25,822 bases of DNA. Origin: a virus. The position numbers and the translations under genes were made by a program. Shown piece by piece: positions 3,855 to 24,875 of this stretch. The DNA is taken from IMG/VR virus record IMGVR_UViG_3300017743_004330, positions 1-25,822 of that record; one strand, 5' to 3'. Within the stretch, counting starts at the first letter, position 1. The number at the start of each line of letters is the position of its first letter. The notes under the pieces are model-generated. The model saw nothing but the letters and a program-made list of their open reading frames with translations. It searched no databases and was not told the origin of the DNA.

Positions 3855-4691
3855 TTACTCCTCCAACAAAGAAACGGCTCTTCCTTTATCTTTTTCCCAA
3901 TCTTTCTCGGGTCTAACTAATAAATTGGTTTTCCATCCCCCTTTTATAGTATTTAAATCTATACCATAATTTCTTTTAGCAAATTGAATAAAAGCATTTA
4001 CATCCTTAGGAAAACAAGTACCTCCATAACCTAATTTATTATCAGGTCCTGGTACATGCAGGTGGCTATCACCAACTCTACCATCGGATGAAAACCCATA
4101 TAATGCTGTTTTCCAATCTGCCCCAATAGCATCACTTACTAATTTAAACTCATTCATTATACTAACTTTAGTAGCAAAGAAAGTATTATTCATGTATTTT
4201 ATTAATTCAGCTGTGGTTGAATCGGTTTCAATAAAAGTACGATTCATAAACCTTTGTTCAAATAAATGTCTTATTTTTTTAGTTATCCATTTTTCACCAC
4301 CTAAAACAATTCTAGCTTGGGTAAGCATATCTAATTTGGCAGTACGTTCAGTTAAAAATTCAGGACTAAATGCAATAGCTAAATTATGATATTTTAAATT
4401 TAATCTTTTAGTAGTTCCAGGAGATACTGTTGATTTTAAAATATAAATTGGACCAAATTTAGCTTTTTCAAATACATTATCAATATATGATAAATCTTGA
4501 GTGCCATCTTTTTTCATTGGGGTTGGAACACATACAAAAACAAAATCACATTCATATATTTCTTCTAAAGTATTTAAACTTTTAAGAGGATCTATATCAT
4601 GAACTCTAACATCTGCTGTTGGTGAAAAAGCAAAAGCTTGGCTTTCACCTACAAACCCGTTTCCAATAATTCCTACTTTATATTTACTCAT
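3855..4691 (-). CDS. UDP-glucose/GDP-mannose 6-dehydrogenase family protein, short form, 278 aa
   Basis: The N-terminus VGIIGNGFVGES is the NAD-binding GxGxxG loop. VPTPMKKDG, STVSPGTT and SPEFLTER are family signatures. AELIKYMNNTFFATKVSIMN (Lys165) and GYGGTCFPKD (catalytic Cys226) match UDP-glucose dehydrogenases, which oxidise the sugar 6-hydroxyl twice to give a uronic acid nucleotide. The usual C-terminal UDP-binding domain is missing: the frame ends soon after the central domain at 278 residues against roughly 390-450 in the family. The nucleotide-sugar site at the dimer interface may therefore be incomplete, or supplied by a different quaternary structure. It closes the glycan island, overlaps the upstream GT2 gene by 4 nt (ATGA), and probably supplies a uronic acid precursor to the glycosyltransferases. 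Confidence 0.82.
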   Translation of the reverse strand: MSKYKVGIIGNGFVGESQAFAFSPTADVRVHDIDPLKSLNTLEEIYECDFVFVCVPTPMKKDGTQDLSYIDNVFEKAKFGPIYILKSTVSPGTTKRLNLKYHNLAIAFSPEFLTERTAKLDMLTQARIVLGGEKWITKKIRHLFEQRFMNRTFIETDSTTAELIKYMNNTFFATKVSIMNEFKLVSDAIGADWKTALYGFSSDGRVGDSHLHVPGPDNKLGYGGTCFPKDVNAFIQFAKRNYGIDLNTIKGGWKTNLLVRPEKDWEKDKGRAVSLLEE

Positions 4692-5872
4692 ATTTTTATT
4701 AAGTCTTTTTGATATTCATTTAGTTGAATAATTTCTACGTGTATATTACCTAACTTAAATTCTCCAATTTCTCCACTTTTTTTAATTATTTGACTTATCC
4801 TTTGAATATTAACATAATCACTATTGTTAAATAAATTACCATCTATTGTAATTAATATTTCACTATTCTTTTCATTATCAATAAGTTTAATCCTAGGAGG
4901 TAAATCTATAATGGTATTAACTTGTTCTTTAATTATATATTTTTCAATTTCCCTTTGATTCATATCACCAACATAAATTGTATCACACCAAGGTTCTAAT
5001 GCTTCTAATAATTGATCATTACAATTTTTAACTATTAAACCAATATTATATTTAGGAGGAACAATAGGTACTAAAGTTGGATCATGTAAAACCATATGAC
5101 CCCATTTACGGATAAAGTTACGAGTTGATCTTTGGTTTTGAGCTAGCCATTCTGGGCTATCTTCATATATGTTTTTAGCTTTATCTAGAGTATTTCTTCT
5201 ACTACCCCTACAAGTCATATGGTAAACAAATCCTTCCCATGTTTGAACGAATCTAACCTCATTTAATTGAAAGCGATTAAATATATCTGAATCTTCCTTG
5301 GATTGTGGGGCATATAAAGGATCGTGTCCACCTATTTCTTGAAAATCTTTTCTATAAAACGCCCAAGGTGCAAATATACCTCCTGTTATTTTTCTAAAAT
5401 CTACAAATTCAACTAATTTATCTAATAGTTCTTGTTCTTTAAACTCTTCAGGTTCTACTCCCCCATTCCATAATATTTTTTCAGGTCCCTTTGGGTGCAA
5501 TGGTGGTTCTATCCTAGTCAATGACACAATTGTTTTGGGTTCAATGTGTTTTTCAATTGCTGTTAACGCATTAGGACATAAATACATATCTGCATGATAA
5601 ATCATAGCTATATCTTTGGTAGCCACGTCATTTACCAGTGTATCATACAATATAGTATGACCTAATCTATTTGGACCTTCATTACGATGTGCCTTAAATA
5701 ATGGATCTTTATCCATCATTTCTAAACACCAGTCCCAAGTACCATCTGTTGAAGCATCATCTGCTATACAAATTTCAACTTCATGGTTGCCTTGATTTTT
5801 TCTAATAGAATTATAACTCCATTTAAGATACTTCAAGTTGTTTCTTGAAGGTTGAATTAAAGATATTTTCAT
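4688..5872 (-). CDS. GT2-family glycosyltransferase with C-terminal extension, 394 aa
   Basis: The N-terminal Rossmann-like GT-A fold shows SLIQPSRNN, the ICIADDASTDGTW motif (Asp38, Asp39) and a DxD-like YHADMYLCPNA near residue 95. A later acceptor-side segment GGHDPLYAPQSKEDSDIFNR follows. This is typical of GT2 inverting transferases using NDP-sugars. About 110 C-terminal residues beyond the catalytic domain are predicted alpha/beta (YNIGLIVKNCNDQLLEALEP) and are unassigned. ATG at 5872 (MKISLIQ) was chosen because it begins the GT-A fold. It lies inside the last 50 nt of the upstream glycosyltransferase gene, an unusually long overlap. The donor and acceptor are unknown. Confidence 0.82.
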   Translation of the reverse strand: MKISLIQPSRNNLKYLKWSYNSIRKNQGNHEVEICIADDASTDGTWDWCLEMMDKDPLFKAHRNEGPNRLGHTILYDTLVNDVATKDIAMIYHADMYLCPNALTAIEKHIEPKTIVSLTRIEPPLHPKGPEKILWNGGVEPEEFKEQELLDKLVEFVDFRKITGGIFAPWAFYRKDFQEIGGHDPLYAPQSKEDSDIFNRFQLNEVRFVQTWEGFVYHMTCRGSRRNTLDKAKNIYEDSPEWLAQNQRSTRNFIRKWGHMVLHDPTLVPIVPPKYNIGLIVKNCNDQLLEALEPWCDTIYVGDMNQREIEKYIIKEQVNTIIDLPPRIKLIDNEKNSEILITIDGNLFNNSDYVNIQRISQIIKKSGEIGEFKLGNIHVEIIQLNEYQKDLIKI

Positions 5873-6767
5873 GATAATATTGTTTGTAATTTTTAAGTGC
5901 TTGATTACTACATTCAAGGTAAAAATCAGCATCGTTATATAATGTATTAATAATTTTTCGTCCCTCCACTAAATCTCCTAATTCTATTGATAAAGATGGG
6001 TGACATATTTCTTGGGTATCTAAACCTTTATATCCTATACAAGGTATTCCTAAATAAGCGCAATTTAAAGCAAATGTGCCCGCAGCGTGTGTTCTCATAA
6101 GATGTACTCCAATTTTACAATCTGATAAAGCCGTAATCCATTGGTTCCATTGTAAATAAGGTAGTTGATTTATCCCTAATTGTTCTTCACCTGCTATTGC
6201 CCTTCCCATTTTAGGTGATTTAATATCTTTAGTTACAGAACTAGCTATTATAAAAGAATCAAATCCACCATACCAACTAACAAAATTTCCTCCTATCATA
6301 ATACCTTTTCTATCATTAATATGAGTTAAAGTATAGGTATCAATTGGGTCCTCTATCATTAGTGTAGGCATTATCCTTACATCTGGGTGGTTGGTGATAC
6401 CTTGATAATAATTTTTATCTGTTTTATTATGTACAAGTAATATATCAGCTTTCCTAATTGTATTGTAATACCATATTTGTTGATTCAATGGATAATCTTG
6501 GAAGCACCAGTTGGGGCCCTCTTGCATTATTGCTATTTTAGAGGCATATGTTCTTACTTTACTCAAAACATCATACTTAATCCACTTTTCAACTCCTACT
6601 TTAGGAATTATTACAATAGCTAAATCATAAGATTCTGATGGGGTTTCCGTACATGGTATGCAGTCCGCCTCTAAAGCACAAGGCCATGCCTGTTCAGTCC
6701 TCATCATTGGGTAATTACGAGGATATTTACCTCTATAACCCATCTCCGTTACATAACAAATTTTCAT
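5823..6767 (-). CDS. GT-B-like glycosyltransferase, 314 aa
   Basis: The protein opens MKICYVTEMGYRGKYPRNYP, a GT-B-like first strand and loop. The C-terminal domain contains ALSDCKIGVHLMRTHAAGTF followed by NCAYLGIPCIGYKGLDTQE, the nucleotide-binding half of GT-B enzymes, where a small region before 'LGIPCIG' replaces the classical E-x7-E. A central GIMIGGNFVSWYGGFDSFI marks the inter-domain start of the second Rossmann fold. It probably transfers a sugar from an NDP donor at the inner face of the membrane or in the cytoplasm. It overlaps the epimerase gene by 4 nt (ATGA) and the next GT2 gene by 50 nt. Family assignment is by fold pattern only. Confidence 0.6.
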   Translation of the reverse strand: MKICYVTEMGYRGKYPRNYPMMRTEQAWPCALEADCIPCTETPSESYDLAIVIIPKVGVEKWIKYDVLSKVRTYASKIAIMQEGPNWCFQDYPLNQQIWYYNTIRKADILLVHNKTDKNYYQGITNHPDVRIMPTLMIEDPIDTYTLTHINDRKGIMIGGNFVSWYGGFDSFIIASSVTKDIKSPKMGRAIAGEEQLGINQLPYLQWNQWITALSDCKIGVHLMRTHAAGTFALNCAYLGIPCIGYKGLDTQEICHPSLSIELGDLVEGRKIINTLYNDADFYLECSNQALKNYKQYYHENIFNSTFKKQLEVS

Positions 6768-7612
6768 ATATTTTCTATATAATTCATTATTTTATGTTTA
6801 GGATTATATCCTAAACGTTTTTGAGTAAAAGCAATATCAGCCAGCCCATTTGGTCTATCACCTGGTCTGGGAGGTATGAATTCATATGGGTGGTTAAATG
6901 CTTTAGCTATTTCTAATATACTAAATTCTTCTCCTGTTCCTAATTGGTATTCTTCATTATTAATATTTTCTCCAGCTAATATTAAACCTTGAACTATATC
7001 TTCTACATGAGTAAAATCTCTTTTTTGATTTCCCTCTCCTGTAATAGTTAAATTTTTACCTGATTGTTTTTGGTCTCTAAATATATTAATAACTGTTTGC
7101 CATTCATTAGCCCAAGTTTCAGTTCTAGGACCATAAACATTATAAAAATAACAAATATTGTATTTTAAACCATACCATTCAGATAATCCTTGAATTAATT
7201 TAGCAACTGTAGATTTAAAGAAAGCGTATGGGGAACCTAACTCACCAGGATAAGATAATCTAGTAGATGAACCTGCATATACAATAGGTATATTTTTCCT
7301 ACAGCATTCCATTAACAGTTTATAACTCCCCCTAATATTGTAATTAAAAGCATCATCAATTTCGTTAAATGAAGGAACTACTTTAGAATATTCTCCTAAA
7401 TGGTATACTAAATCAAATTTAAAATCAAATGCTCTTTTTGTATTAATTGTATCTCTTTTAAGATAAATAGCTCCTTCAATGTGGTTAGATTCTAAACCAG
7501 CAGAATAATTATCCCAACTAGTTACTTTATGTCCTAATTCTAATAACTTTTCAATTAAATTAGCACCCACACCTCCGGCACCACCTGTTACTAATATGTT
7601 TTTTTTACTCAT
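6764..7612 (-). CDS. NAD-dependent nucleotide-sugar epimerase/dehydratase (extended SDR), 282 aa
   Basis: ILVTGGAGGVGANLIEKL is the extended-SDR NAD(P) loop at residues 6-23, and SWDNYSAG follows the second strand as in UDP-sugar enzymes. The catalytic triad is seen as Ser115/116 in AGSSTRL, Tyr129 and Lys133 in YAFFK. FYNVYGPR and RDFTHVEDIVQGL are family signatures, and RPGDRPNGLADI near the end fits sugar-nucleotide 4-epimerases, 4,6-dehydratases or UDP-glucuronate decarboxylases. The exact reaction cannot be fixed by eye. With the dehydrogenase at 3855-4691, a UDP-glucose to UDP-glucuronate to epimer or pentose route is possible. ATG at 7612 was chosen over 7666 because it starts MSKKNILVTGG directly before the NAD loop. 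It overlaps the phosphodiesterase-like gene by 8 nt. Confidence 0.83.
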   Translation of the reverse strand: MSKKNILVTGGAGGVGANLIEKLLELGHKVTSWDNYSAGLESNHIEGAIYLKRDTINTKRAFDFKFDLVYHLGEYSKVVPSFNEIDDAFNYNIRGSYKLLMECCRKNIPIVYAGSSTRLSYPGELGSPYAFFKSTVAKLIQGLSEWYGLKYNICYFYNVYGPRTETWANEWQTVINIFRDQKQSGKNLTITGEGNQKRDFTHVEDIVQGLILAGENINNEEYQLGTGEEFSILEIAKAFNHPYEFIPPRPGDRPNGLADIAFTQKRLGYNPKHKIMNYIENI

Positions 7613-8036
7613 AATTAATAATATTATCACTACATATTCCAAGTAAATTATTTGGAATATTTCCATTAAACTCCTCTGGATGAACTGATATACTGTCAGG
7701 ACACCTTATTCCTGGGTATGCCCAAATGTATCCTTTAGATGTTATTGTAACTGAATCATTTTCATGCCAAAAATAATTTAAATTTGTTTCTTTTAATATT
7801 GTTAAAGCTTCAAGGTTTTTACAATGAATCCATAATTTATTTTTATGTTTTTCAAGCCAATCTAAGTTAACTGGGTATTGGGGAACATCATGTCCTAAAA
7901 ATAACCCATTTAATAAAAACCATAAGTCAATTTCAACATCAAATCCAGCAGTAATTGCTTCTTCAATGTAAGCAATCTTATTTTCCTTTTCGGGTTGGGC
8001 CCCATTTATATTACCCCTATGGGAAATTAATAACAT
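7605..8036 (-). CDS. Glycerophosphodiester phosphodiesterase-like protein, short form, 143 aa
   Basis: The start LLISHRGNINGAQPEKENK and the following GFDVEIDLWF...LFLGHD reproduce the GDPD signature. His6-Arg7, Glu35-x-Asp37 and His49 correspond to the two catalytic histidines and the metal-binding acid pair. GDPD enzymes hydrolyse glycerophosphodiesters to glycerol-3-phosphate. This protein is only 143 residues against about 230-300 for the family, so part of the TIM barrel is missing, or it is a minimal relative. WIHCKNLEAL and YFWHENDSV fit later barrel strands. It is placed 1 nt after the RuBisCO-like gene stop and just before the epimerase. It may act on a phosphorylated glycan substituent rather than phospholipid. 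Confidence 0.65.
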   Translation of the reverse strand: MLLISHRGNINGAQPEKENKIAYIEEAITAGFDVEIDLWFLLNGLFLGHDVPQYPVNLDWLEKHKNKLWIHCKNLEALTILKETNLNYFWHENDSVTITSKGYIWAYPGIRCPDSISVHPEEFNGNIPNNLLGICSDNIINYE

Positions 8037-8037
8037 A

Positions 8038-9186
8038 CTAAACTAGATTATCAATAGACTTTCTCATTTCTAAAGCACCAGCTAACGTTCCATCTTTATG
8101 GCCATGTATAGCACCCCCTACATTAGCCATGTAATTAGGACCTACTTTATCGGTTACCATTTGAGTTAATGATGAGTTAAAACCACAACTTAAAGCAGGC
8201 ATTACATTATATTCATGTAATATATTAACTGAGTCTAATACTTCTTTTTCATCCCATTTGTAGTAACCACCAATCATTCCAGCATGTATAAAATCAACAC
8301 CCATCATACCCGCTAATTGACACATTACTCTCCAATCAATATGAAAATCATGATTTTTATTAGTTAGTATTTTATCACCACTTTTCTGGAAATGAACGAA
8401 TATAGGTAGATCTAATTCACGTATTGCTTTGTACACTCCTAAACCACACCAAAAATTAACATGAACACCATTTCCTCCTAATTCATATACTTGTTTTACT
8501 CTATCTAAAATATAAGGGTAATCTGAGTGGATTGAAACACAATATACTACATTTTTATCTTTAAGATAATCCATTATTAATGGTACTCTTTTTTCAATAG
8601 GACAAAAACTAGGATCGGATAATATTTCATCTTCTTTAATAAAATTACAACCACCTTCAACTAATTCTTTTACCATTTCAAGCAATATCTCAGGTGTAAT
8701 GCCCGTTTTTGGTTTTACTATTGCTCCAAATAAAGGTTTATCTTTTACTCCTGTAAATTCTCTAATACCTGTTATCCCAAATTTAGGTCCTAGGAAACAA
8801 TCTTTAACAGACTGAGGGAATGTAATATCTAAAACATGACATTTATTAATATCATCAATATCCATTTGACCACCCATTATATTAACTAACATATGAGCAA
8901 TACCATCAGTTTTAAAATCAATATTAATTACAGGAAAAGCTATTTCAACAATACCTGATTTTGTTTTTAAAATAGATGGATCATCTGGTATTATAATTTT
9001 ACAGGAGTGGTTTTCAAATAATTCATCTGTTTCCCATTGGTTTCTAACCTTTGGATTACCTACACTTTGTCCTATAGATAAATTCCAAGCTGCATCCTCT
9101 AATGTTGTTCTAGACTCTAAATAATATTTTACTAAAAAATACTTATTTAAATCAATTTCATTTTTACTTCTTAAGATCGATAACAT
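8038..9186 (-). CDS. RuBisCO-like protein (RuBisCO large-subunit superfamily), 382 aa
   Basis: N-terminal alpha/beta domain (1-145) and C-terminal barrel are both present. By eye, GAIVKPKTG (Lys158, Lys160) aligns with spinach Lys175/Lys177, and FIKEDE (Lys184, Asp186, Glu187) with the carbamylated Lys201 and Mg ligands Asp203/Glu204. His265 aligns with His294, Ser333 with Ser379 and NVGG (Gly357-Gly358) with Gly403-Gly404. Two residues needed for carboxylation differ: the His294-Arg295 pair reads HF, and the loop-6 Lys334 position is Tyr in AGMIGGYYKWD. This is the pattern of form IV RuBisCO-like proteins, which enolise or isomerise phosphorylated sugar-like compounds, or decarboxylate them, rather than fix CO2. 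It lies between a cupin (23-nt overlap) and a GDPD-like gene in the glycan operon. Superfamily membership is strong; substrate and reaction are unknown. Confidence 0.88.
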   Translation of the reverse strand: MLSILRSKNEIDLNKYFLVKYYLESRTTLEDAAWNLSIGQSVGNPKVRNQWETDELFENHSCKIIIPDDPSILKTKSGIVEIAFPVINIDFKTDGIAHMLVNIMGGQMDIDDINKCHVLDITFPQSVKDCFLGPKFGITGIREFTGVKDKPLFGAIVKPKTGITPEILLEMVKELVEGGCNFIKEDEILSDPSFCPIEKRVPLIMDYLKDKNVVYCVSIHSDYPYILDRVKQVYELGGNGVHVNFWCGLGVYKAIRELDLPIFVHFQKSGDKILTNKNHDFHIDWRVMCQLAGMMGVDFIHAGMIGGYYKWDEKEVLDSVNILHEYNVMPALSCGFNSSLTQMVTDKVGPNYMANVGGAIHGHKDGTLAGALEMRKSIDNLV

Positions 9187-9496
9187 ATTTGTCTTTTGTG
9201 TTTGATGGAGTTTTAAGAATTAATATTTCACAATCTTTAATAAATTCTGGGTCTGCTATTTCATAGGGTGGAATAACAAATATATCTCCAGATTCTACTA
9301 TTTGATCTTGAATCCTCATTTTTCCTTTAATTAATAAATTTATTTCTGTTCCTTCTTTATGGTAATGGTAATCCCATATATCACCTTTAGGATGTACTTT
9401 ATAACATGCTTCAAATTCGGAGGTATTATAAGCCGAAGGATTAAAATTGCCTACAAACCATCCATCTTTCATATCTTTTAACTTATGTACTTTCAT
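9164..9496 (-). CDS. Cupin-fold protein, 110 aa
   Basis: The first cupin motif is present: His44-x-His46-x4-Glu51-x6-Gly in DYHYHKEGTEINLLIKGKM. The second motif (GDIFVIPPYEIADPEF) has the G and P but no metal-binding His, so metal binding may be partial or altered. Small single-domain cupins in sugar operons include ketoisomerases and epimerases, as well as regulators. It starts 14 nt inside the nucleotidyltransferase gene and overlaps the RuBisCO-like gene by 23 nt, so the three are probably co-translated and may work on the same sugar phosphate. Substrate not known. Confidence 0.75.
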   Translation of the reverse strand: MKVHKLKDMKDGWFVGNFNPSAYNTSEFEACYKVHPKGDIWDYHYHKEGTEINLLIKGKMRIQDQIVESGDIFVIPPYEIADPEFIKDCEILILKTPSNTKDKYVIDLKK

Positions 9497-10211
9497 TATA
9501 TATTTTATCTGTATATTTAATTAAATCTTCAGGTGTTCCTACAGCATTATGTTGTTCATTAGGTATATGATAAACTCCTATTTTTTTACCTAATTCTATT
9601 AAACTATTATAAGTAGGAGCTATATAAAATTCATTATTATATCTTTCATTACGGTTTACCATATTCTCAGCTGAATATACAAAATCTTTTCCGTGTTTCC
9701 AAAAGTGAATTCCATTTAATGAAATAGAACTTAATACTTCTTTTTCTGCTAATTTAATACCAAAACCTTCTCTATTCAATTTTATATAACTATTTTTAGG
9801 AGTATCTGATGTGTATGTTACTACAAACCCATCATATGGATAATTTTTTACAAATGTAGAAAATGATTTATCATCCCACCACATTACTTGATCACAATTA
9901 GTAATAATTAAAGGTGAATCATTATCGATGTATTTTTTAGCTAATAAAGCAGTACAAGCAGCTCCTTCTGTTATTTCATCTATTTCAATTACTTTACAAT
10001 TTGGATATATATTATATAAATGAAATGTTAGATTATGAGATTTTTGTGTAATAAAAATAAGATTACCCCTAACCCCTAAGGTATCTACAGCATGTTCTAT
10101 CATAGGTTTACCTTCAATAGGAATTAAAGGTTTTGGTAATGTATAACCTGATGTTTTAAATCTAGAACCCCTACCCGCCATAGGTATTAATATATTTAAT
10201 TCTTTACTCAT
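9483..10211 (-). CDS. Sugar-phosphate nucleotidyltransferase, 242 aa
   Basis: ILIPMAGRGSRFKTSGYTLP followed by KPLIPIEGKPMIEH (residues 7-40) is the glycine-rich nucleotide-binding and PKPLxPI signature of RmlA/GlmU/ManC-type enzymes. ITNCDQVMWW with Asp107 gives the metal-binding acid. These enzymes join a sugar-1-phosphate and an NTP to make an NDP-sugar and pyrophosphate. At 242 aa it is a single-domain version without the left-handed helix of GlmU. It overlaps the upstream GT2 gene by 4 nt (ATGA) and is followed directly by the cupin and RuBisCO-like genes. It probably activates the island's special sugar. Sugar and base specificity cannot be read from sequence. Confidence 0.85.
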   Translation of the reverse strand: MSKELNILIPMAGRGSRFKTSGYTLPKPLIPIEGKPMIEHAVDTLGVRGNLIFITQKSHNLTFHLYNIYPNCKVIEIDEITEGAACTALLAKKYIDNDSPLIITNCDQVMWWDDKSFSTFVKNYPYDGFVVTYTSDTPKNSYIKLNREGFGIKLAEKEVLSSISLNGIHFWKHGKDFVYSAENMVNRNERYNNEFYIAPTYNSLIELGKKIGVYHIPNEQHNAVGTPEDLIKYTDKIYNEST

Positions 10212-10834
10212 AAAGTACTATAATATTTATTTTGTTTTTCTTGCCTATCTATTTGTTTTGGGTGGTATAAACAAAAATGCTCATTTATAGGTAAAGCTGC
10301 ATAATGATTATATCCATCTAATACTTCATGTACTTTATTTACCCATTCAATTTCATTATTATTTTTATATATCCTCCATTGATAGTCTGGGAAGTTAACC
10401 CATCCCTTATTGTCTACTCTCCATCCCCATTTTTGGATATGTTCTTGAGTTAGACCCTCTACTGTGTTAATTCTAGGTACTGCTAAAACATCAACTTTTT
10501 CATTTTTATCTAAGATAATATGTAAATTTTTAACTAATGCTTCATTAGGAATTTCATCAGCATCTATTTGAAAAATATAATCACCCTTACAAAGTGTAGT
10601 TAAATAATTCTTCCAATCAGCAAAATGATGTTTAAATGTTTGAGCTTCTATTTTAATATTTGTATATTCTGATAGGCAAAATTGTAAATAAGACCAAACT
10701 TCAGCAGTTCCTCCTCCTTTGTCAAAAAGAACTACTATCTCATCTTCATCTCTTTTTATTTTAGATAAATTGTCTATAAGACGTCTTATTTCATCTAACT
10801 CATTACATACCGTTATTGCGTAACTTATTTTCAT
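10208..10834 (-). CDS. GT2-family glycosyltransferase, 208 aa
   Basis: MKISYAITVCNELDEIRRLI is a GT-A N-terminal strand and helix. DYIFQIDADEIP contains the DxD-type metal and nucleotide site. The following WRIYKNNNEIEWVNKVHEVL segment is common in lipid- or glycan-directed GT2 enzymes related to lipopolysaccharide core transferases. At 208 aa it is a compact catalytic domain. It follows the 147-aa conserved gene after 2 nt and overlaps the nucleotidyltransferase start. It would add one residue of the phage-encoded glycan. Confidence 0.78.
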   Translation of the reverse strand: MKISYAITVCNELDEIRRLIDNLSKIKRDEDEIVVLFDKGGGTAEVWSYLQFCLSEYTNIKIEAQTFKHHFADWKNYLTTLCKGDYIFQIDADEIPNEALVKNLHIILDKNEKVDVLAVPRINTVEGLTQEHIQKWGWRVDNKGWVNFPDYQWRIYKNNNEIEWVNKVHEVLDGYNHYAALPINEHFCLYHPKQIDRQEKQNKYYSTL

Positions 10835-11286: not shown

Positions 11287-12573
11287 TTAATTTATTTTTT
11301 CTAAAGTAGGTATATCTATTTCTGGTAGATCTAATCCTATTTGAGTTGGAAAATCAGGAATATTAGCATCTAATATGTTATCAGCCAATTCTTTCATTTT
11401 TTCAAAACTAAAATTTGATTTAGAATATTTAGCTTGATGTGTTGCTTTTAATTTATAATTTTTATAATTATCAAACATATCAATAAAAGCTTGACCTACA
11501 TTTCCTGGATTAGGTTGGAACCACTCTGCTTCCTTCATTATCCATTTATTTGCGGATGTAGGATGTACTTTTTCTAATTTACCAGGTAATAAAGTAGTAA
11601 ATGATTTATGTAAAAAATCAGTGTGACCCGACCATCCAGAGGCTATAATTGGTTTTTTAGTTAAGCTAAATTCTAATAAAGGTCTACCATAACCCTCACC
11701 TTTAGTCATACTAATCATAGCCTTTACTTTAGAATGATTGTATAACTGATTCATGTCTTCGTCACTGAATTTACCAGTTATCAAATATACATTGGGTATA
11801 TCTTTACTATTAATTGTTTTTTTAATTTTAATAATTCTATCTAATACCTCATTTCTACTCATATATGAATCAACACCAATTGATGTTTTTAAAATTAATG
11901 CTGGTTTTCGTTTTTTATTTTTAAACGTTTCATAAAATGATTTAATCATTAGACCAACATTTTTTCTATCATGTCCAATTGCTCCTTCCATCCAGTGGCC
12001 TACAAATAAAAACCCAAATGATTCTTTAATATTACTTAAGTCAAATGTATTTTTTTCTTTCAATGGTTTATATAGGTCTATATTAGCACCTTCAAACATA
12101 ACATGGATAGGTTTTGTACTTTTAACTACCCCCATGATTTGTCCCGTTTTTTGGTTCTTCTTTTCATAAGACATAGATTCAAATACACTTTTAGAATGTT
12201 TTGATGAAACCCAATTTATATCCATTCTATTTAAACCCTCAATCCATTCTGGTTGAGCAGATGTTGTTTCAATCCCAGCAGTACACCCTATATTATATTT
12301 CCCTATAGGTTGAAATTCACTAGGAATAGTTATTTGCATCCAAATATCGGGCTTTGTTTGTTGCCAATTTGGTTGAGCTATATGTTTATTTAAAAAAGCC
12401 CATTCGGGATGATCTTTACAAAAACCCCAAGTTGTAGAACCCCATTTTTGGGGTAATAATTCAACTTCATATTTATCAAGTTCTATTATAGCTTTAACTA
12501 CATCCCTAGCTCTAGCTCCATAACCTGAGTATGTGTCAAAAGGACACGAAATAACAAATCTTGGTTTATTCAT
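11287..12573 (-). CDS. GT4-type glycosyltransferase, 428 aa
   Basis: The protein begins with a GT-B N-terminal fold (RFVISCPFDTYSGYGARARD). GFLFVGHWMEGAIGHDRKN starts the second Rossmann domain. TKGEGYGRPLLEFSLTKKPI with IIASGWSGHTDF is the nucleotide-binding E-x7-E signature of GT4 retaining enzymes. It likely transfers a hexose or similar sugar from an NDP donor. It is joined to the upstream GT4 gene by a 1-nt TAATG overlap, so the two are probably translated together and may build consecutive linkages. Donor and acceptor are unknown; the acceptor could be a phage virion protein, modified DNA or host surface glycan. Confidence 0.82.
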   Translation of the reverse strand: MNKPRFVISCPFDTYSGYGARARDVVKAIIELDKYEVELLPQKWGSTTWGFCKDHPEWAFLNKHIAQPNWQQTKPDIWMQITIPSEFQPIGKYNIGCTAGIETTSAQPEWIEGLNRMDINWVSSKHSKSVFESMSYEKKNQKTGQIMGVVKSTKPIHVMFEGANIDLYKPLKEKNTFDLSNIKESFGFLFVGHWMEGAIGHDRKNVGLMIKSFYETFKNKKRKPALILKTSIGVDSYMSRNEVLDRIIKIKKTINSKDIPNVYLITGKFSDEDMNQLYNHSKVKAMISMTKGEGYGRPLLEFSLTKKPIIASGWSGHTDFLHKSFTTLLPGKLEKVHPTSANKWIMKEAEWFQPNPGNVGQAFIDMFDNYKNYKLKATHQAKYSKSNFSFEKMKELADNILDANIPDFPTQIGLDLPEIDIPTLEKIN

Positions 12574-14012
12574 TAGTATATTAATTTATGTTTTAAAACT
12601 CTACCTTTATATTCATTAGCATTAATTACTTCATATTTTTCTCTTGGTTTCCAAGTACTAAATAATTCATCAAATGCTTCCATAACTCTATTAGCTTGAT
12701 GTTTAGATGTAAATCCAGCTTCATCACCTAAAGCCCATTCTCTGCCTAAGTTACCTATTCTTTTTCTTTCTTTATCTCCCATACCATATGCCTTTTTTAT
12801 TTGATCGGCTGCATCTTCCCACTTACACCTATCATCAAATATATAAGGTGTTGGAGGTGATCCTTGAATTGATCTACTAGCAGGATAAACTGGTAGAACC
12901 CATTCACCATGTTCTGTATATGTACCTCTGTGATTTGATGGTACTTCTGGGTTTGGTGTGAACCATTCCCCCTTTTCATCAACAAATCTCATTTGATCTT
13001 GCATACCACCAGTTACATTAGCTATAAATGGTGTTCCAGTTAACATTGCCTCAGTTATAGTTAATCCCCATCCTTCATTAGAAGTTAATAATATCTGGAG
13101 GTCAGCTATATTATATAAGTAATTTAATTGAGGTTGAGATAATTTACTTGTTGAAAAAATTATATTATTGGCATAATCCTCTTCAAAGAAATATTCTCTA
13201 ACTGCTTCTAAATTTGTACCAGCATCCGTTGATAATTCAGTATGTAAAACAAAATAACAATCTTTTGCTTTTTCTTTGGGTAATGAATCTAAAAAGACTC
13301 TAAATGCTAACATAGCATCTGGTATTGCTTTTCTACGTATATTTCTTGAATTAAAGAATAAAACGAATTCGGGTTTTTTATTACCAAAAAGCAACTTTTT
13401 AAAATCATCAAAGTCTTTATCTTTTTTAGTAATAGGGAAATAAGTATTTGGATTTAAACCATGAGGTACGTATTTAAATACCTTATTTTTAGCTTTATCA
13501 TCTAATACTATTTTATTAATATTAACGGTTTGTTTAGATATACCCATTAATAAATCACATGCTTCATAATACCCATTATTATACATTGGGGCTGGGTAGT
13601 CATCCCAGATATTTAAATATGTAATAGGAACAGTTGTTCTGATTTCAGCCTCCATACTAAATAACCAAGTAAAATATCTTGGGTCAGTAATAAGCATAAT
13701 AGCATCTGGTTTTTCTATTGCTATTAGTTGTCTAACAATATCAGGACTACCATAACCATCAGATGGATATAAAAATACTGATGAATCTTCTATACCCATG
13801 GCTTCATCTGTAGTCTTACATAGATCTAACTTTTTACCTTTTTCTGGATGTTTTATTGCTCCTGCTATTTGTACCCAGTTAAAATGATGAGCTGTATGTA
13901 ATACAATTTCTTTAGCAACTGTGGCTACCCCAGAATGTACTCTAATATCATCACAAATCAAAAGTATTTTTTTTCTTTGATCTTTAGGAAGTGGTGGAAA
14001 TTTTTTATTCAT
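12573..14012 (-). CDS. GT4-type glycosyltransferase, 479 aa
   Basis: KKILLICDDIRVHSGVATVA is the N-terminal GT-B strand with a glycine-rich acceptor loop. ILFFNSRN-type text (VLFFNSRNIRRKAIPDAMLA) opens the second domain. TSNEGWGLTITEAMLTGTPF with IANVTGGMQDQ gives the E-x7-E nucleotide-binding motif of GT4 enzymes. ATG at 14012 (MNKKFPPLPK) is chosen. The frame can be extended 8 codons to a TTG at 14036, but that overlaps the RHH gene and lacks a better leader. It begins the run of glycan genes. Substrates cannot be predicted. Confidence 0.82.
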   Translation of the reverse strand: MNKKFPPLPKDQRKKILLICDDIRVHSGVATVAKEIVLHTAHHFNWVQIAGAIKHPEKGKKLDLCKTTDEAMGIEDSSVFLYPSDGYGSPDIVRQLIAIEKPDAIMLITDPRYFTWLFSMEAEIRTTVPITYLNIWDDYPAPMYNNGYYEACDLLMGISKQTVNINKIVLDDKAKNKVFKYVPHGLNPNTYFPITKKDKDFDDFKKLLFGNKKPEFVLFFNSRNIRRKAIPDAMLAFRVFLDSLPKEKAKDCYFVLHTELSTDAGTNLEAVREYFFEEDYANNIIFSTSKLSQPQLNYLYNIADLQILLTSNEGWGLTITEAMLTGTPFIANVTGGMQDQMRFVDEKGEWFTPNPEVPSNHRGTYTEHGEWVLPVYPASRSIQGSPPTPYIFDDRCKWEDAADQIKKAYGMGDKERKRIGNLGREWALGDEAGFTSKHQANRVMEAFDELFSTWKPREKYEVINANEYKGRVLKHKLIY

Positions 14013-14025
14013 TGGTCTTAACGAT

Positions 14026-14214
14026 TTATATTTCAAGATTAGTATGGTTGGTTATTTTCTTACGGAAATCTTCATCTGTTAGGAACAAATGAACAGATCT
14101 ATCAGCAAGTTTTTGGAAAGAAAATTTTCTTCTAACACATTCAACCTTAAAATTCTCGAATAAATCGCTTTTGACTTTAACACTAGTTAGTGTCATTGGT
14201 TTTTTGTTTGTCAT
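14026..14214 (-). CDS. Ribbon-helix-helix-like DNA-binding protein, 62 aa
   Basis: The pattern TSVKVKSDLFENFKVECVRR is a short strand followed by a helix, then a turn and KLADRSVHLFLTDEDFRKKI. This resembles the MetJ/Arc/CopG ribbon-helix-helix fold, which dimerises and inserts the beta strands into the DNA major groove. Similar small proteins occur in many T4-like marine phages, from memory. It lies directly upstream of the glycan operon, after a TATAAT-like motif at 14237-14248, so it could regulate that operon or its own promoter; this is inferred from position only. Confidence 0.62.
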   Translation of the reverse strand: MTNKKPMTLTSVKVKSDLFENFKVECVRRKFSFQKLADRSVHLFLTDEDFRKKITNHTNLEI

Positions 14215-17967: not shown

Positions 17968-19931
<1,964 letters not shown>

Positions 19932-21587: not shown

Positions 21588-21932
21588 TTATATCTCAAAC
21601 GAACTTAACGCATTTGTATAAGGGTTTAAATCTAATGACCATTGTAAATCACTAAAAAACCCTTCTAATTTATTTAATAATATTGAATCAAATACTTTTT
21701 GTCTATCAGCATATCTATCTAAAAAATCTTGAACTTTTTCAGGAATATCATAATCAAAAAATGCTAATGCTTCTATCTTATATGGGTTATCTTTACAATA
21801 AATCCATTTAACTTTATCAGCCATTGTAATTAAATTATGTTTTCTATCTAATTTCCATAATTTTAATAAATCATTATAACGAATAGCCGCTCTTACAGGT
21901 GCGGGGGCACCTTTAAGTATTTCAGTAAACAT
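21588..21932 (-). CDS. 43: DNA polymerase thumb C-terminal fragment after an in-frame TAA, 114 aa
   Basis: The text GAPAPVRAAIRYNDLLKLWK and MADKVKWIYCKDNPYKIEAL matches the C-terminal thumb of T4/RB69-type DNA polymerases (VRAAI-YN followed by EKVKWIYL-NP). The segment from 21965 to 21933 is open in the same frame and reads KYQGTSARAGE, so the coding continues from the preceding polymerase fragment except for one TAA at 21966-21968. An ATG at 21932 is preceded by AGGTG 4 nt upstream, so separate translation is possible. The usual C-terminal clamp-binding peptide is not obvious in the last residues (YTNALSSFEI). It could be a third subunit of a split enzyme, the tail made by stop readthrough, or debris from a nonsense mutation. 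Confidence 0.8.
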   Translation of the reverse strand: MFTEILKGAPAPVRAAIRYNDLLKLWKLDRKHNLITMADKVKWIYCKDNPYKIEALAFFDYDIPEKVQDFLDRYADRQKVFDSILLNKLEGFFSDLQWSLDLNPYTNALSSFEI

Positions 21933-21965
21933 TTCACCTGCTCTAGCACTTGTGCCTTGATATTT

Positions 21966-21968
21966 TTA
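21966..21968 (-). other. In-frame TAA inside DNA polymerase thumb coding
   Basis: On the minus strand the frame reads ...GTT AAA AAG TTA TAA AAA TAT CAA GGC ACA..., so one stop interrupts continuous homology to gp43. No length change is needed to join the two sides, so this is a substitution-type interruption, not a frameshift. TAA is the ordinary stop of many genes here, so global reassignment is excluded. Confidence 0.85.
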
Positions 21969-22523
21969 TAACTTTTTAACTGCTGTTGGGTTACCTAATT
22001 TTGCTAATGGTATTTCTCCACCTAATATTTGTTTTTTAAATACTTTAATTTGATCAATTATATTAGATTTTTCTTCACCTTTAAGTACTTGTTGAAGAAT
22101 ATCATTAAAGAATTCTCCTAAAATAGGTGGGAAATTTGCTTTCATAAACTCTAAACCCTTAATGTCTAAAGTTTCTTTTTCAATACCCTCTTGTTTAGTA
22201 ATCCACTGTGCATAACGTCTAGTAGCTCTGAAGTAAGCCGATCTAATTACACATTCAGTTTTCATTTCAAGTCTATGTTCTGATACATTAAAACAATCTT
22301 TAGCTAAATTATCATAATGATCAGTAATAATATCTTGATATTTAAGTGCTACCTTTTCTAAAATATCATCCTTTTCTTTATCTGTAAATTCTTCAAAATT
22401 AGGATATAAATGGAATAATATAGGTTCAGCATTAAAATAATTAGAATCTGTGTCTACATAAGCACAATAATTTTCATCATTTGCATCACAAATCCACCAA
22501 GGTGTTTCTTCTAAATGTTTCAT
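21966..22523 (-). CDS. 43: DNA polymerase C-terminal palm fragment with motif C, 185 aa
   Basis: ENYCAYVDTDSNYF is family-B motif C with the catalytic aspartates (Asp24, Asp26). RLEMKTECVIRSAYFRATRR followed by YAQWITKQEG corresponds to the KKRY-type motif, and LDIKGLEFMKANFPP to the start of the thumb. This supplies the second metal-binding carboxylate pair that the 579-aa N-terminal fragment lacks, so the two must associate to make an active enzyme. Its ATG at 22523 follows an A-rich leader, 2 nt after the 88-aa gene. The frame ends at the unusual TAA. T4-related Aeromonas phages are known to have gene 43 in two parts, which supports a working split. Confidence 0.9.
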   Translation of the reverse strand: MKHLEETPWWICDANDENYCAYVDTDSNYFNAEPILFHLYPNFEEFTDKEKDDILEKVALKYQDIITDHYDNLAKDCFNVSEHRLEMKTECVIRSAYFRATRRYAQWITKQEGIEKETLDIKGLEFMKANFPPILGEFFNDILQQVLKGEEKSNIIDQIKVFKKQILGGEIPLAKLGNPTAVKKL

Positions 22524-22525
22524 TT

Positions 22526-22792
22526 TTAAAATTTACCGTCTTCGCCTGGTATTGTAATTATACCAACATCTTTGGTGCCATCTGATCTTGTTCTTGAATC
22601 TCTTTCAAGTTCAACCTCAAATTTAATGCCCTTTAATTTAAAATGCCCGCCTTGTTTTAACATTTTTCTAAAGAAGTTTTCTTGGGTTTCACTCCAATCT
22701 TCACTAATTGATATTAATTCTTCCTTAGAAATAATATCCCCATTAGCCGTGATATACATTCCTTTCCTTATTGATTGTTTTTTTAAAGCCAT
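22526..22792 (-). CDS. Hypothetical protein inserted between polymerase fragments, 88 aa
   Basis: I recognise no family. It has KGMYITANGDIISKEELISI followed by SEDWSETQENFFRKMLKQGG and HFKLKGIKFEVELERDSRTR, an apparent small alpha/beta domain without Cys clusters, and no homing-endonuclease motif (no LAGLIDADG, GIY-YIG or HNH). It sits between the cupin (2-nt gap) and the motif-C fragment, so it is part of the 0.6-kb insertion that splits gene 43. Confidence 0.6.
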   Translation of the reverse strand: MALKKQSIRKGMYITANGDIISKEELISISEDWSETQENFFRKMLKQGGHFKLKGIKFEVELERDSRTRSDGTKDVGIITIPGEDGKF

Positions 22793-22794
22793 AT

Positions 22795-23139
22795 TTATTT
22801 TCTTTTATAATCATCTTCGATTCTAACAATATCATCTTCTCCGAAATATGTCCCAGTTTGTACCTCTATAAATTGCACTACTTCATCAGTTTCATTCCAA
22901 GCTCTATGTTTATTTCCTAACCCTATTTTAATAGATTCCCCAGGACTTCTAAACACTTTTTCATCATCTAATATAATAGTAAGATTTCCTTTCACAACAG
23001 TCCAATTTTCTTTTCTTTTATGGTGGTATTGATACGATAATCTTTGTCCTGGAGATACTGTTATCTTCTTAACTTTACACTCAGGTGTATCAAGTAATAC
23101 TTCATAATGTCCCCATGGTCTAAAGTCTATTTCATTCAT
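22795..23139 (-). CDS. Mannose-6-phosphate-isomerase-type cupin, 114 aa
   Basis: The match to the C-terminal domain of type II phosphomannose isomerase/ManC is strong. It shows FRPWGHYEVLLD, KVKKITVSPGQRLSYQYHHK, RKENWTVVKGNL, GNKHRAWNE and IEVQTGTYFGEDDIVRIEDD. His39/His40, Glu44 and His78 are the likely metal ligands. These enzymes interconvert mannose-6-P and fructose-6-P, feeding GDP-mannose. The nucleotidyltransferase half of bifunctional ManC is absent here. It lies inside the split polymerase gene rather than in the glycan island, with a 4-nt ATGA overlap to the polymerase N-fragment and a 2-nt gap to the 88-aa gene. Confidence 0.84.
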   Translation of the reverse strand: MNEIDFRPWGHYEVLLDTPECKVKKITVSPGQRLSYQYHHKRKENWTVVKGNLTIILDDEKVFRSPGESIKIGLGNKHRAWNETDEVVQFIEVQTGTYFGEDDIVRIEDDYKRK

Positions 23140-24875
23140 ATTTCTAATTTTATTTCATTTCTAATAACCTTATTCATATGTCTATTAGCACATAGGGCTG
23201 ATTCTTGTATAATTCTATGCCCTGATAATGTTATTGCTTCACTTAATATTGAATGGTTCATACCATACCTAAATGAAGGTAATGCTGTAGCCCCATATAA
23301 ACTATTAAGCAAAATTTTCATTGTATACTGCATTAGATAATTATATTCACCTTTTTCTGTATCTTTAGCTTTATAAGCAGCTTTCATACGTCCCTTATAT
23401 AAAACACGTTCTTCAAACCATTTTTTTAATATAGTTGATAATACTGCTTCTTTATCTGTTCTAAACATTGAACCATTAGCCGCTACTGCTAAATCATTTT
23501 GTTTAATCATTTCAACTAACCTTCCAGCATTAACATAGGTTTGTTTTCGTTTTGCATTTTCTACTAATAATTTTTCTTCGGGATCACGTTCTTTTAAATC
23601 GTTAAGACCCAATCTATTATTACGGTCATCTGCATCTATAATACGGCCCACGAATGTTTCTTTACCAATGTTAATTGACATAATTATAGATGGATACAGC
23701 GATGTTAAATCCTCATCAAACATATACTTGTATAATCCCGCTTTAGGGCAAAAAAGATATCCTCCAGCATAACCATCTTTCTTTTGTGGTTTAGATTCTT
23801 TAGGAGGGGGTATTATATTTTGAGATAATAAATAAGCCGAAATAGCTCCGTCTTGAGTAACACTATTAGAATAAACTTCACTATAGTTATGTTTGCCTTT
23901 ATGAGATAAATTTTTAGTTAAAGCAATATATTGCAATTTTTCATCTAATTTTTTTAATATTTCAACATCAACAAAATTATATTGAATAAATTTTTGTATA
24001 TCGGTTTCAAATAATTGATCTAAGTTTCCTTCATATTCAACTTTATTCATACCAACATATTTTTCCCCAATAGCATCTAATTTCCAACTTGGTTCATCTT
24101 TCCAACTATATTTTTTATGTAAACGAATATAATCAAGTGATTCAACCCCCACAATATCTACAAACTGATTTCGTTTGTAGAAAAATTTAGAAAATTTCTT
24201 AGACTCTACTTTACCTAAAGGGGATAAATGATCAGCAAACTCTTTACCTATTGTATTACACATTCTGTAATATAAATAAGGTATATCAAAATAATCTGAA
24301 TTATAGCCAATTAGTATATCGGGGTCTATATCTCTAATTATTTCAATAAATTTAGCTAATAATTGACTTTCAGTACTACAAGGTATAATCTCTTTATTCC
24401 TAGCTTTAGTATGTTTAAGTTGATTTTTTTTATCAAGGATTAAAATATGCCAAGTGTCTGGTGTTTTATCCCACCATGCTATTGAAGTTATAGGCATTGG
24501 GGCACTTTCAATATAGTCTTCAGTTAAAGCTCCTCCAATTTCACACTCAATATCAAAAAATACTTCCCTATGTCCTGTAGAAGGTACATCATTAATCCCA
24601 TACCTCTCAACTAAGAATTTTTGATGAACTTTCATATCATGAAAATGAAGTCCAGGAGTATTTTTATCACTATAATTTGGGTTTTTTGAAAAATACCAAT
24701 TGTTAGTATGTTTTAAATACTCACCATTTAACCCAATATTAGTGTGATCTTCTTCCTTACATTCTTGATATGCTATATTTTCATAAGGGATAATTTGGTG
24801 TCCTTTTTCATCCCATAGATGCATTTCCCAAACATTATGACCTAATTTTTTACCTTGATAACATTTTTTATACAT
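23136..24875 (-). CDS. 43: DNA polymerase family B, exonuclease and palm fragment (gp43 N-part), 579 aa
   Basis: The N-terminal domain is followed by the 3'-5' exonuclease: ExoI FFDIECE (Asp108, Glu110), ExoII LIGYNSDYFDIPYL (Asn192, Asp197) and ExoIII YNFVDVEIL (Tyr299, Asp303). The polymerase begins with motif A EDLTSLYPSIIMSIN (Asp389) and motif B KILLNSLYGA (Lys520, Asn524, Tyr527, Gly528). The frame ends 51 residues after motif B, before motif C. With the 185- and 114-aa pieces plus 11 bridging codons the total is about 890 aa, close to T4 gp43 (898 aa). ATG at 24875 overlaps the MazG-like stop as TAATG, with AGGA 6 nt upstream. It replicates the phage genome and proofreads. Confidence 0.93.
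   Translation of the reverse strand: MYKKCYQGKKLGHNVWEMHLWDEKGHQIIPYENIAYQECKEEDHTNIGLNGEYLKHTNNWYFSKNPNYSDKNTPGLHFHDMKVHQKFLVERYGINDVPSTGHREVFFDIECEIGGALTEDYIESAPMPITSIAWWDKTPDTWHILILDKKNQLKHTKARNKEIIPCSTESQLLAKFIEIIRDIDPDILIGYNSDYFDIPYLYYRMCNTIGKEFADHLSPLGKVESKKFSKFFYKRNQFVDIVGVESLDYIRLHKKYSWKDEPSWKLDAIGEKYVGMNKVEYEGNLDQLFETDIQKFIQYNFVDVEILKKLDEKLQYIALTKNLSHKGKHNYSEVYSNSVTQDGAISAYLLSQNIIPPPKESKPQKKDGYAGGYLFCPKAGLYKYMFDEDLTSLYPSIIMSINIGKETFVGRIIDADDRNNRLGLNDLKERDPEEKLLVENAKRKQTYVNAGRLVEMIKQNDLAVAANGSMFRTDKEAVLSTILKKWFEERVLYKGRMKAAYKAKDTEKGEYNYLMQYTMKILLNSLYGATALPSFRYGMNHSILSEAITLSGHRIIQESALCANRHMNKVIRNEIKLEI

Follow-up and report, generated by a model that had tools for sequence, protein, structure and literature searches.

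A RuBisCO-like protein in a probable viral nucleotide-sugar cassette, with phosphosugar isomerisation as its possible function

What does a protein of the RuBisCO superfamily do inside a phage glycan operon? The question is raised by a 25.8 kb IMG/VR virus record (IMGVR_UViG_3300017743_004330, positions 1 to 25,822, the whole of which is called the window below), which encodes such a protein as an ORF of 382 codons on the minus strand at 8038-9186; the plus strand across this interval has many stops. The initial annotation had described a RuBisCO-like protein (RLP) in this setting, and the ORF, its match to Pfam RuBisCO_large (E 6.5e-29), its neighbours and the phage families on the record all agree with that description. 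The top PDB match is the type III RuBisCO 8dht (E 1e-31 with phmmer, 5e-48 with the family profile). An AlphaFold2 model built with 23 relatives (pLDDT 89.4, pTM 0.88) superposes over nearly its full length on form III RuBisCO and RLP structures (Z 40.5-39, rmsd 2.4-2.9), the form III structure 2cwx_E giving Z 40.5 and rmsd 2.5 over 368 aligned residues. The structures 1tel and 2qyg also match; the DeepYkr, Photo and NonPhoto clades were covered as structures only and are absent from the tree described below. By domain and by two-domain fold, the protein belongs to the RuBisCO superfamily.

The genes of the region are as follows.

3855-4691, minus strand: short UDP-glucose/NDP-sugar dehydrogenase, 278 aa (Pfam UDPG_MGDP_dh, 7.2e-21)
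4688-5932, minus strand: family-2 glycosyltransferase (Pfam Glycos_transf_2, 9.6e-11)
5823-6767, minus strand: 314-aa protein of no named family (no Pfam or NCBIfam match; cluster U314, which recurs in a few relatives)
6764-7666, minus strand: SDR epimerase/dehydratase (Pfam Epimerase, 2.5e-34; start probably internal, near 7612)
7605-8036, minus strand: mini-GDPD-like phosphodiesterase, 143 aa (motif alignment, profile and fold)
8038-9186, minus strand: RLP, 382 aa (Pfam, PDB, structure model, tree and residue alignment)
9164-9496, minus strand: mini-cupin (CUP), 110 aa (weak Pfam Cupin_7/Cupin_2; profile matches to PDB cupins)
9483-10211, minus strand: sugar-phosphate nucleotidyltransferase (NTP), 242 aa (Pfam NTP_transf_3/NTP_transferase; PDB 4evw, E 3e-32 by profile)
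10208-10834, minus strand: family-2 glycosyltransferase (Pfam Glycos_transf_2, 2.2e-10)
11287-14036, minus strand: two glycosyltransferases, 428 and 487 aa (phrog_2170 glycosyltransferase, 1e-22 and 2e-21)

The neighbours first proposed for RLP (nucleotidyltransferase, cupin, GDPD-like protein, SDR and glycosyltransferases) were confirmed, and they overlap or abut, CUP sharing 23 nt with RLP and 14 nt with NTP. The 278-aa NDP-sugar dehydrogenase is without parts of the usual enzyme of about 410 aa, and similar short forms occur in loci L012, L074 and L084.

The GDPD-like label also held. The mini-GDPD has no Pfam match, and its profile finds the P. furiosus GDPD 7e0v (E 3e-4). Its AlphaFold2 model (pLDDT 96) aligns over its full length with GDPDs, with Z 10.6 to 1o1z (TM1621) and nearly all top rows being GDPDs; these were ranked first by VIA-align but not by Foldseek alone. 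The HRG, E-x-D and GHD residues of the catalytic motif are invariant in the alignment. Fold and motif are therefore those of a GDPD, whereas the full-length barrel of about 240 aa is not present, the whole barrel being shortened to 143 aa. In locus L063 (8206-9276) a mini-GDPD is fused to a DUF7796-like protein, which suggests joint action; Pfam gave this partner, termed c5, a weak DUF7796 match only. CUP is 106-110 aa long across cassettes, and its HxH...E metal motif is conserved while the His of the second motif is missing.

We then asked how far this arrangement is conserved. Among 64 distinct viral RLP loci flanked on each side by 4 kb or more, NTP is present in 62, GDPD in 60 and CUP in 52, with all three in 48, and the preferred gene order is NTP-CUP-RLP-(x)-GDPD. 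Neighbouring cassette genes mostly overlap or lie no more than 10 nt apart (NTP-CUP, 52 of 53; CUP-RLP, 46 of 53). An SDR occurs in about half of the RLP loci, and the flanking genes include methyltransferases, glycosyltransferases, WavE-type, aminotransferase and sialic-type genes. The conserved unit is thus the four genes NTP, CUP, RLP and GDPD, while SDR, glycosyltransferases and other glycan genes vary. Of the initially proposed order nucleotidyltransferase-cupin-RLP-GDPD-SDR, the first four members recur widely and the SDR, like the glycosyltransferases, is variable; homologues found always in unrelated contexts, which had been named as counting against the proposal, are not what we observed. 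CUP is not essential, since Legionella and some cassettes do without it. The RLP distance matrix correlates with those of NTP (r 0.48), CUP (0.40) and GDPD (0.26), values reached in 0 of 200 permutations; shared phage ancestry also contributes to these correlations, and the Fisher and permutation figures are descriptive because the sampled loci overlap through database redundancy and query-based selection.

A single-sequence search found 37 viral RLP loci, and an alignment-based search at least 345 (80 of which were kept) together with 22 cellular loci. By tblastn, GenBank phages gave no RLP relative, and a single-sequence scan of cellular genome contigs gave no RLP, the cellular relatives appearing only via the alignment. 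In one locus (L025, 580-1561) the RLP copy is split over two frames with an apparent internal deletion. The record in the window carries phage DNA polymerase, clamp-loader and chaperonin families, and the 14 long RLP contigs (113-294 kb) include a T4-type gp23 major capsid gene in 8 and a terminase in 6, which together point to a phage origin. The DNA polymerase of the window seems split (21588-24875, minus strand), since ORFs of 579 and 185 aa match successive portions of phrog_262 and are separated by two small ORFs; in the relatives L031 and L021 it is a single ORF of about 850 aa. The chaperonin is a phage GroEL-type protein of 540 aa (17968-19590, minus strand; phrog_5725, 8e-155).

Cellular carriers are rare and comprise SAR11 single cells, Legionella, Azospirillum oleiclasticum, an Elusimicrobia MAG, and Verrucomicrobia and DPANN MAGs. 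RLP was found in 4 of 22 Legionella species sampled, and across a sample of 398 genomes of the Legionella phylum a family-level score was reached for the Legionella centre only (309 bits, the next being 125). Azospirillum and Elusimicrobia have all four genes in the order GDPD-RLP-CUP-NTP, and NTP adjoins RLP in these two as well as in Legionella, SAR11, a nanoarchaeon and Verrucomicrobia. In SAR11 AG-447-F10 the module is part of a chromosomal island with pheST/lepA-like genes on one side and gyrB-like genes on the other, as judged from translations. The idea of a phage system therefore stands as far as the wide viral distribution is concerned but not as a phage-only one, given the full modules in A. 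oleiclasticum and the Elusimicrobia MAG and the RLP-NTP pairs in Legionella and SAR11.

Two bacterial neighbourhoods contain further genes. Downstream of the A. oleiclasticum module (L055, 6771-9568) lie cysD- and cysNC-like ORFs (from translations), a hint of sulfation that occurs in this single case. A LicD-family transferase (L056, 6934-7773, minus strand; Pfam LicD, 6e-44) lies divergent to the Legionella RLP-NTP pair, and the idea of a transferred phospho-sugar was set aside since LicD is not among the best 25 of 49 families for 111 viral neighbours.

The mosaic nature of the phage cassettes and their variable flanks would also suit a captured host gene carried as baggage without a role in glycan synthesis, but the NTP link holds across viruses, bacteria and archaea, and active-site residues stay conserved among members as low as 35% identity, and we regard this explanation as exceedingly improbable. 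Participation of RLP in a nucleotide-sugar pathway is highly probable.

A tree of 81 rows groups the RLP members of viruses and cells in one clade (45 rows, SH-aLRT 99), apart from RuBisCO forms I, II and III, MtnW and the OiaX-type RLPs; the tree was made by a quick method and its rows cover these forms, not DeepYkr, Photo, NonPhoto or IV-GOS, so the clade is new relative to the sampled forms. Profile bit scores leave a gap between the RLP family (at least 296) and the other RuBisCO homologues tested (at most 202). Several named identities were rejected on NCBIfam cut-offs: form III, MtnW (127.9 against 409 and 104.6 against 513.6 bits for the equivalogs) and OiaX (129.1 against 700 bits, E 1.9e-37).

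The active site was aligned across 46 family members, from phages to Legionella, with RuBisCO numbering used for the equivalents. In the RLP of the window these are:

K158 and K160: equivalent to K175 and K177
K184-E-D186-E187: K184, D186 and E187 equivalent to K201, D203 and E204
Q267 and K268: at the positions of H294 and R295
H301: equivalent to H327
Y308: at the position of the loop-6 K334
S333: equivalent to S379

The equivalents of K175, K177, K201, D203 and E204 are invariant in all 46 members, bearing out the metal site initially read as Lys184, Asp186 and Glu187, and D202 is replaced by Glu. The equivalents of H327 and S379 are invariant wherever the sequence extends that far, and the phosphate-loop glycines are retained. 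On the other hand, the K334 position is Tyr in all 45 members that are long enough, that of H294 is Gln in 46 of 46, and that of R295 is Lys in 45 of 46. The absence of the loop-6 lysine and of an Arg295 equivalent had both been noticed by eye, although the latter replacement is conservative. His265, also listed at that stage as kept, is present but aligns with H292, the first His of the form I H-x-H-R motif, rather than with the catalytic H294, and is Phe in 12 of 46 members. Two residues of the partner subunit, E60 and N123, correspond to Gly39 and Gly106, with less certainty as the N-terminal alignment is divergent and contains an insertion. Thus, relative to carboxylating forms I-III, the metal/carbamate site and K175/K177 are present, whereas K334, H294/R295 and E60/N123 are not. 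In RuBisCO chemistry, the residues kept here serve enolisation and the residues lost here serve CO2 addition; judged from the alignment, the family appears to have retained the enolisation machinery and to have lost that of carboxylation.

These changes bear on whether RLP might be a real carboxylase, either a carbon-fixation auxiliary metabolic gene or a maker of sugar acids. The metal site is preserved together with K175 and K177, the best-scoring solved relative is a type III RuBisCO, and viral rbcL genes are commonly read in this way, one with reported activity (PMC12615777). Nevertheless, K334, E60, N123, H294 and R295 are substituted, the clade is separate, neither a small subunit nor phosphoribulokinase was seen in the cassette, and no other RuBisCO was found in the Legionella genomes that carry RLP, which leaves a carboxylase very improbable. 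The family is very probably non-carboxylating, as its residues and tree position predict, and fits a form IV RLP in the broad sense of a RuBisCO homologue with substituted catalytic residues. This agrees with the form IV-like type first proposed; the opposite outcome then named, a place within the carboxylating forms with an aligned loop-6 lysine, is not what we found, as the family forms its own clade and has Tyr.

Non-carboxylating chemistry could take other directions. RLP could be a decarboxylase or C-C-cleaving enzyme acting on a phosphorylated 3-keto sugar acid, as in OiaX, the product, an unusual ketose phosphate or branched sugar phosphate, then being activated by NTP. Decarboxylation by an RLP has been characterised for OiaX (PMC6302742), the NCBIfam OiaX model gives the phage protein a comparable partial score, and some RLP cassettes include an NDP-sugar dehydrogenase, a source of sugar acids. 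Yet the OiaX score is far under its cut-off, the tree separates the two groups, OiaX has lost K177 but retains H294, R295 and K334 (opposite to the RLP family), and a tetronate-type kinase, present in the sampled OiaX-type loci, was not seen beside RLP. We consider a decarboxylase unlikely. Slightly less probable is another enediol reaction without net isomerisation, by an enolase or tautomerase (as MtnW), a C3 epimerase or an oxygenase: the Mg-carbamate and Lys175 equivalents are common to all of these, and MtnW structures match the RLP model about as closely as form III does (Z 39.4 against 40.5), but K177 is lost in MtnW and kept here, the MtnW cut-offs were not reached, and no methionine-salvage genes were seen in the cassette.

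A sister cassette provides a further line of evidence. GDPD and CUP are also found apart from RLP, together with other NTP fusions, and neither can serve as an RLP-specific marker. In the cyanophages Bellamy and SynMITS9220M01, CUP lies beside an NTP fused to LacAB_RpiB (Pfam LacAB_rpiB, 4e-33), and genes for a HAD phosphatase and a PfkB-type kinase are located upstream; a CUP-based scan recovered many such cassettes. Among 149 distinct viral CUP loci, RLP is present in 73 and members of the RpiB/PfkB/HAD set in 69, and the two never occur together. Pfam RpiB was found in 0 of 40 RLP virus records (5 of 5 controls were positive), and a PfkB domain in 2 of the 40, about 4 kb from RLP in L079 and far off in the other. 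A sugar-phosphate isomerase thus holds RLP's position elsewhere, which supports, without proving, isomerase activity of RLP; the argument is weakened as RpiB cassettes depend on a kinase and a phosphatase as well, which RLP cassettes lack. The NTPs of RLP cassettes group together and those of RpiB cassettes form a separate lineage, so the products may differ and RLP need not act as RpiB does; that RLP simply takes the place of RpiB and gives an identical product is less probable for this reason.

The cyanophage cassettes contain, in order, HAD phosphatase, PfkB-type kinase, NTP/RpiB fusion, cupin and mini-GDPD (L204, 4628-8513; L205, 5631-13149; L197, 3326-6474), and resemble a pentose analogue of the ADP-heptose route, with GenBank labels of phosphatase or hypothetical protein only. 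Across L124-L203, the most frequent neighbour of the mini-GDPD is a HAD-NTP fusion (450-470 aa), with neither RLP nor cupin present.

The best overall explanation, to which we give a probability of about one half, is that RLP is a Mg-carbamate phosphosugar isomerase feeding the nucleotidyltransferase, within a separate non-carboxylating RLP clade. From the residues and the gene context we infer enolisation chemistry, isomerisation in preference to other enediol reactions, the product and its use in a glycan. Carbamylated Lys184 with Mg2+ held by Asp186 and Glu187 would abstract the proton beside the carbonyl of a phosphorylated ketose, the substrate being bound by Lys158/Lys160, His301, Ser333 and the phosphate-loop glycines Gly335 and Gly357-Gly358. 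Reprotonation of the enediol at a different carbon would give the isomer by a 1,2- or 1,3-carbonyl shift. NTP would then add a nucleotidyl group to this sugar phosphate, the cupin may act on the sugar phosphate or the NDP-sugar, for example by epimerisation, and the mini-GDPD may cut a phosphodiester within the same pathway. The variable SDRs, methyltransferases and glycosyltransferases would tailor the product and attach it to a surface or virion glycan. On the narrower point of isomerase activity as such, the odds seem about even: RLPs are known to include decarboxylases and enolases too, which counts against it, and RLP1 of R. rubrum and R. palustris (DeepYkr) catalyses a 1,3-isomerisation in conjunction with a cupin (PMC5893883), a precedent that supports isomerisation with a cupin partner.

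Our literature search found no viral or Legionella RLP with a nucleotidyltransferase and no described pathway of this kind. It is possible, although we advance it tentatively, that viruses, for the most part, have put a branch of the RuBisCO superfamily to use in making a nucleotide-activated sugar, with a RuBisCO-fold isomerase where the related phage cassette has its conventional isomerase-kinase-phosphatase route, and that both branch and sugar nucleotide are new. If true, activated-sugar synthesis would be a new role for the superfamily. Viral rbcL genes have been reported as carbon-fixation AMGs (PMC12615777, PMC8506154), and one landfill viral RbcL was noted to group with RbcL-like proteins (PMC12607003). 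The RLP family may explain abundant viral rbcL-like matches that annotation pipelines can take for carbon fixation. Since the CO2-fixing residues are lost and the cassette is most likely one for an activated sugar, a viral RuBisCO gene of this kind is not to be counted towards carbon fixation without an assay, and rbcL annotations call for a look at loop 6, for Tyr, and at the neighbourhood, for NTP, CUP and GDPD. Because Azospirillum is in culture and has the full module, the pathway is open to testing, and the substrate of RLP can be approached through comparison with the RpiB-based cassette of cyanophages.

In comparison with known systems, form III RuBisCO (8dht, 2cwx, 1geh) gives the best PDB scores and shares K175, K177, K201, D203, E204, H327 and S379 with RLP, but K334, E60, N123 and the H294/R295 pair are changed. 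MtnW, the DK-MTP-1-P enolase, has the same fold, metal site and phosphate-binding glycines, and differs at K177 and in clade, gene context and NCBIfam scores. OiaX (3-oxo-isoapionate-4-P decarboxylase) and the RLPs linked to four-carbon-acid kinases share the fold and metal site, but have the opposite pattern at H294/R295/K334 and K177, an adjoining acid sugar kinase in the loci examined and a separate clade. Novel, unplaced RuBisCO homologue groups were reported by GOS in 2007 (PMC1821046), and a review names an IV-GOS clade of ocean sequences (PMC10173188). The RLP family could be this clade, which likewise comes from aquatic metagenomes, a comparison made by description and not between sequences; neither source describes a phage link or function for IV-GOS. 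The cyanophage cassette, likened above to the ADP-heptose route, surrounds an isomerase with the same CUP, GDPD and NTP families, but has RpiB, kinase and phosphatase where RLP stands and an NTP of a different lineage. Finally, DeepYkr RLP1, a 5-methylthioribulose-1-P 1,3-isomerase with a cupin methylsulfurylase, belongs to methionine salvage, has no nucleotidyltransferase or glycan genes described (PMC5893883) and is not in our tree, yet it resembles RLP in its non-carboxylating RuBisCO fold, its adjoining cupin and the enediol isomerisation that we propose.
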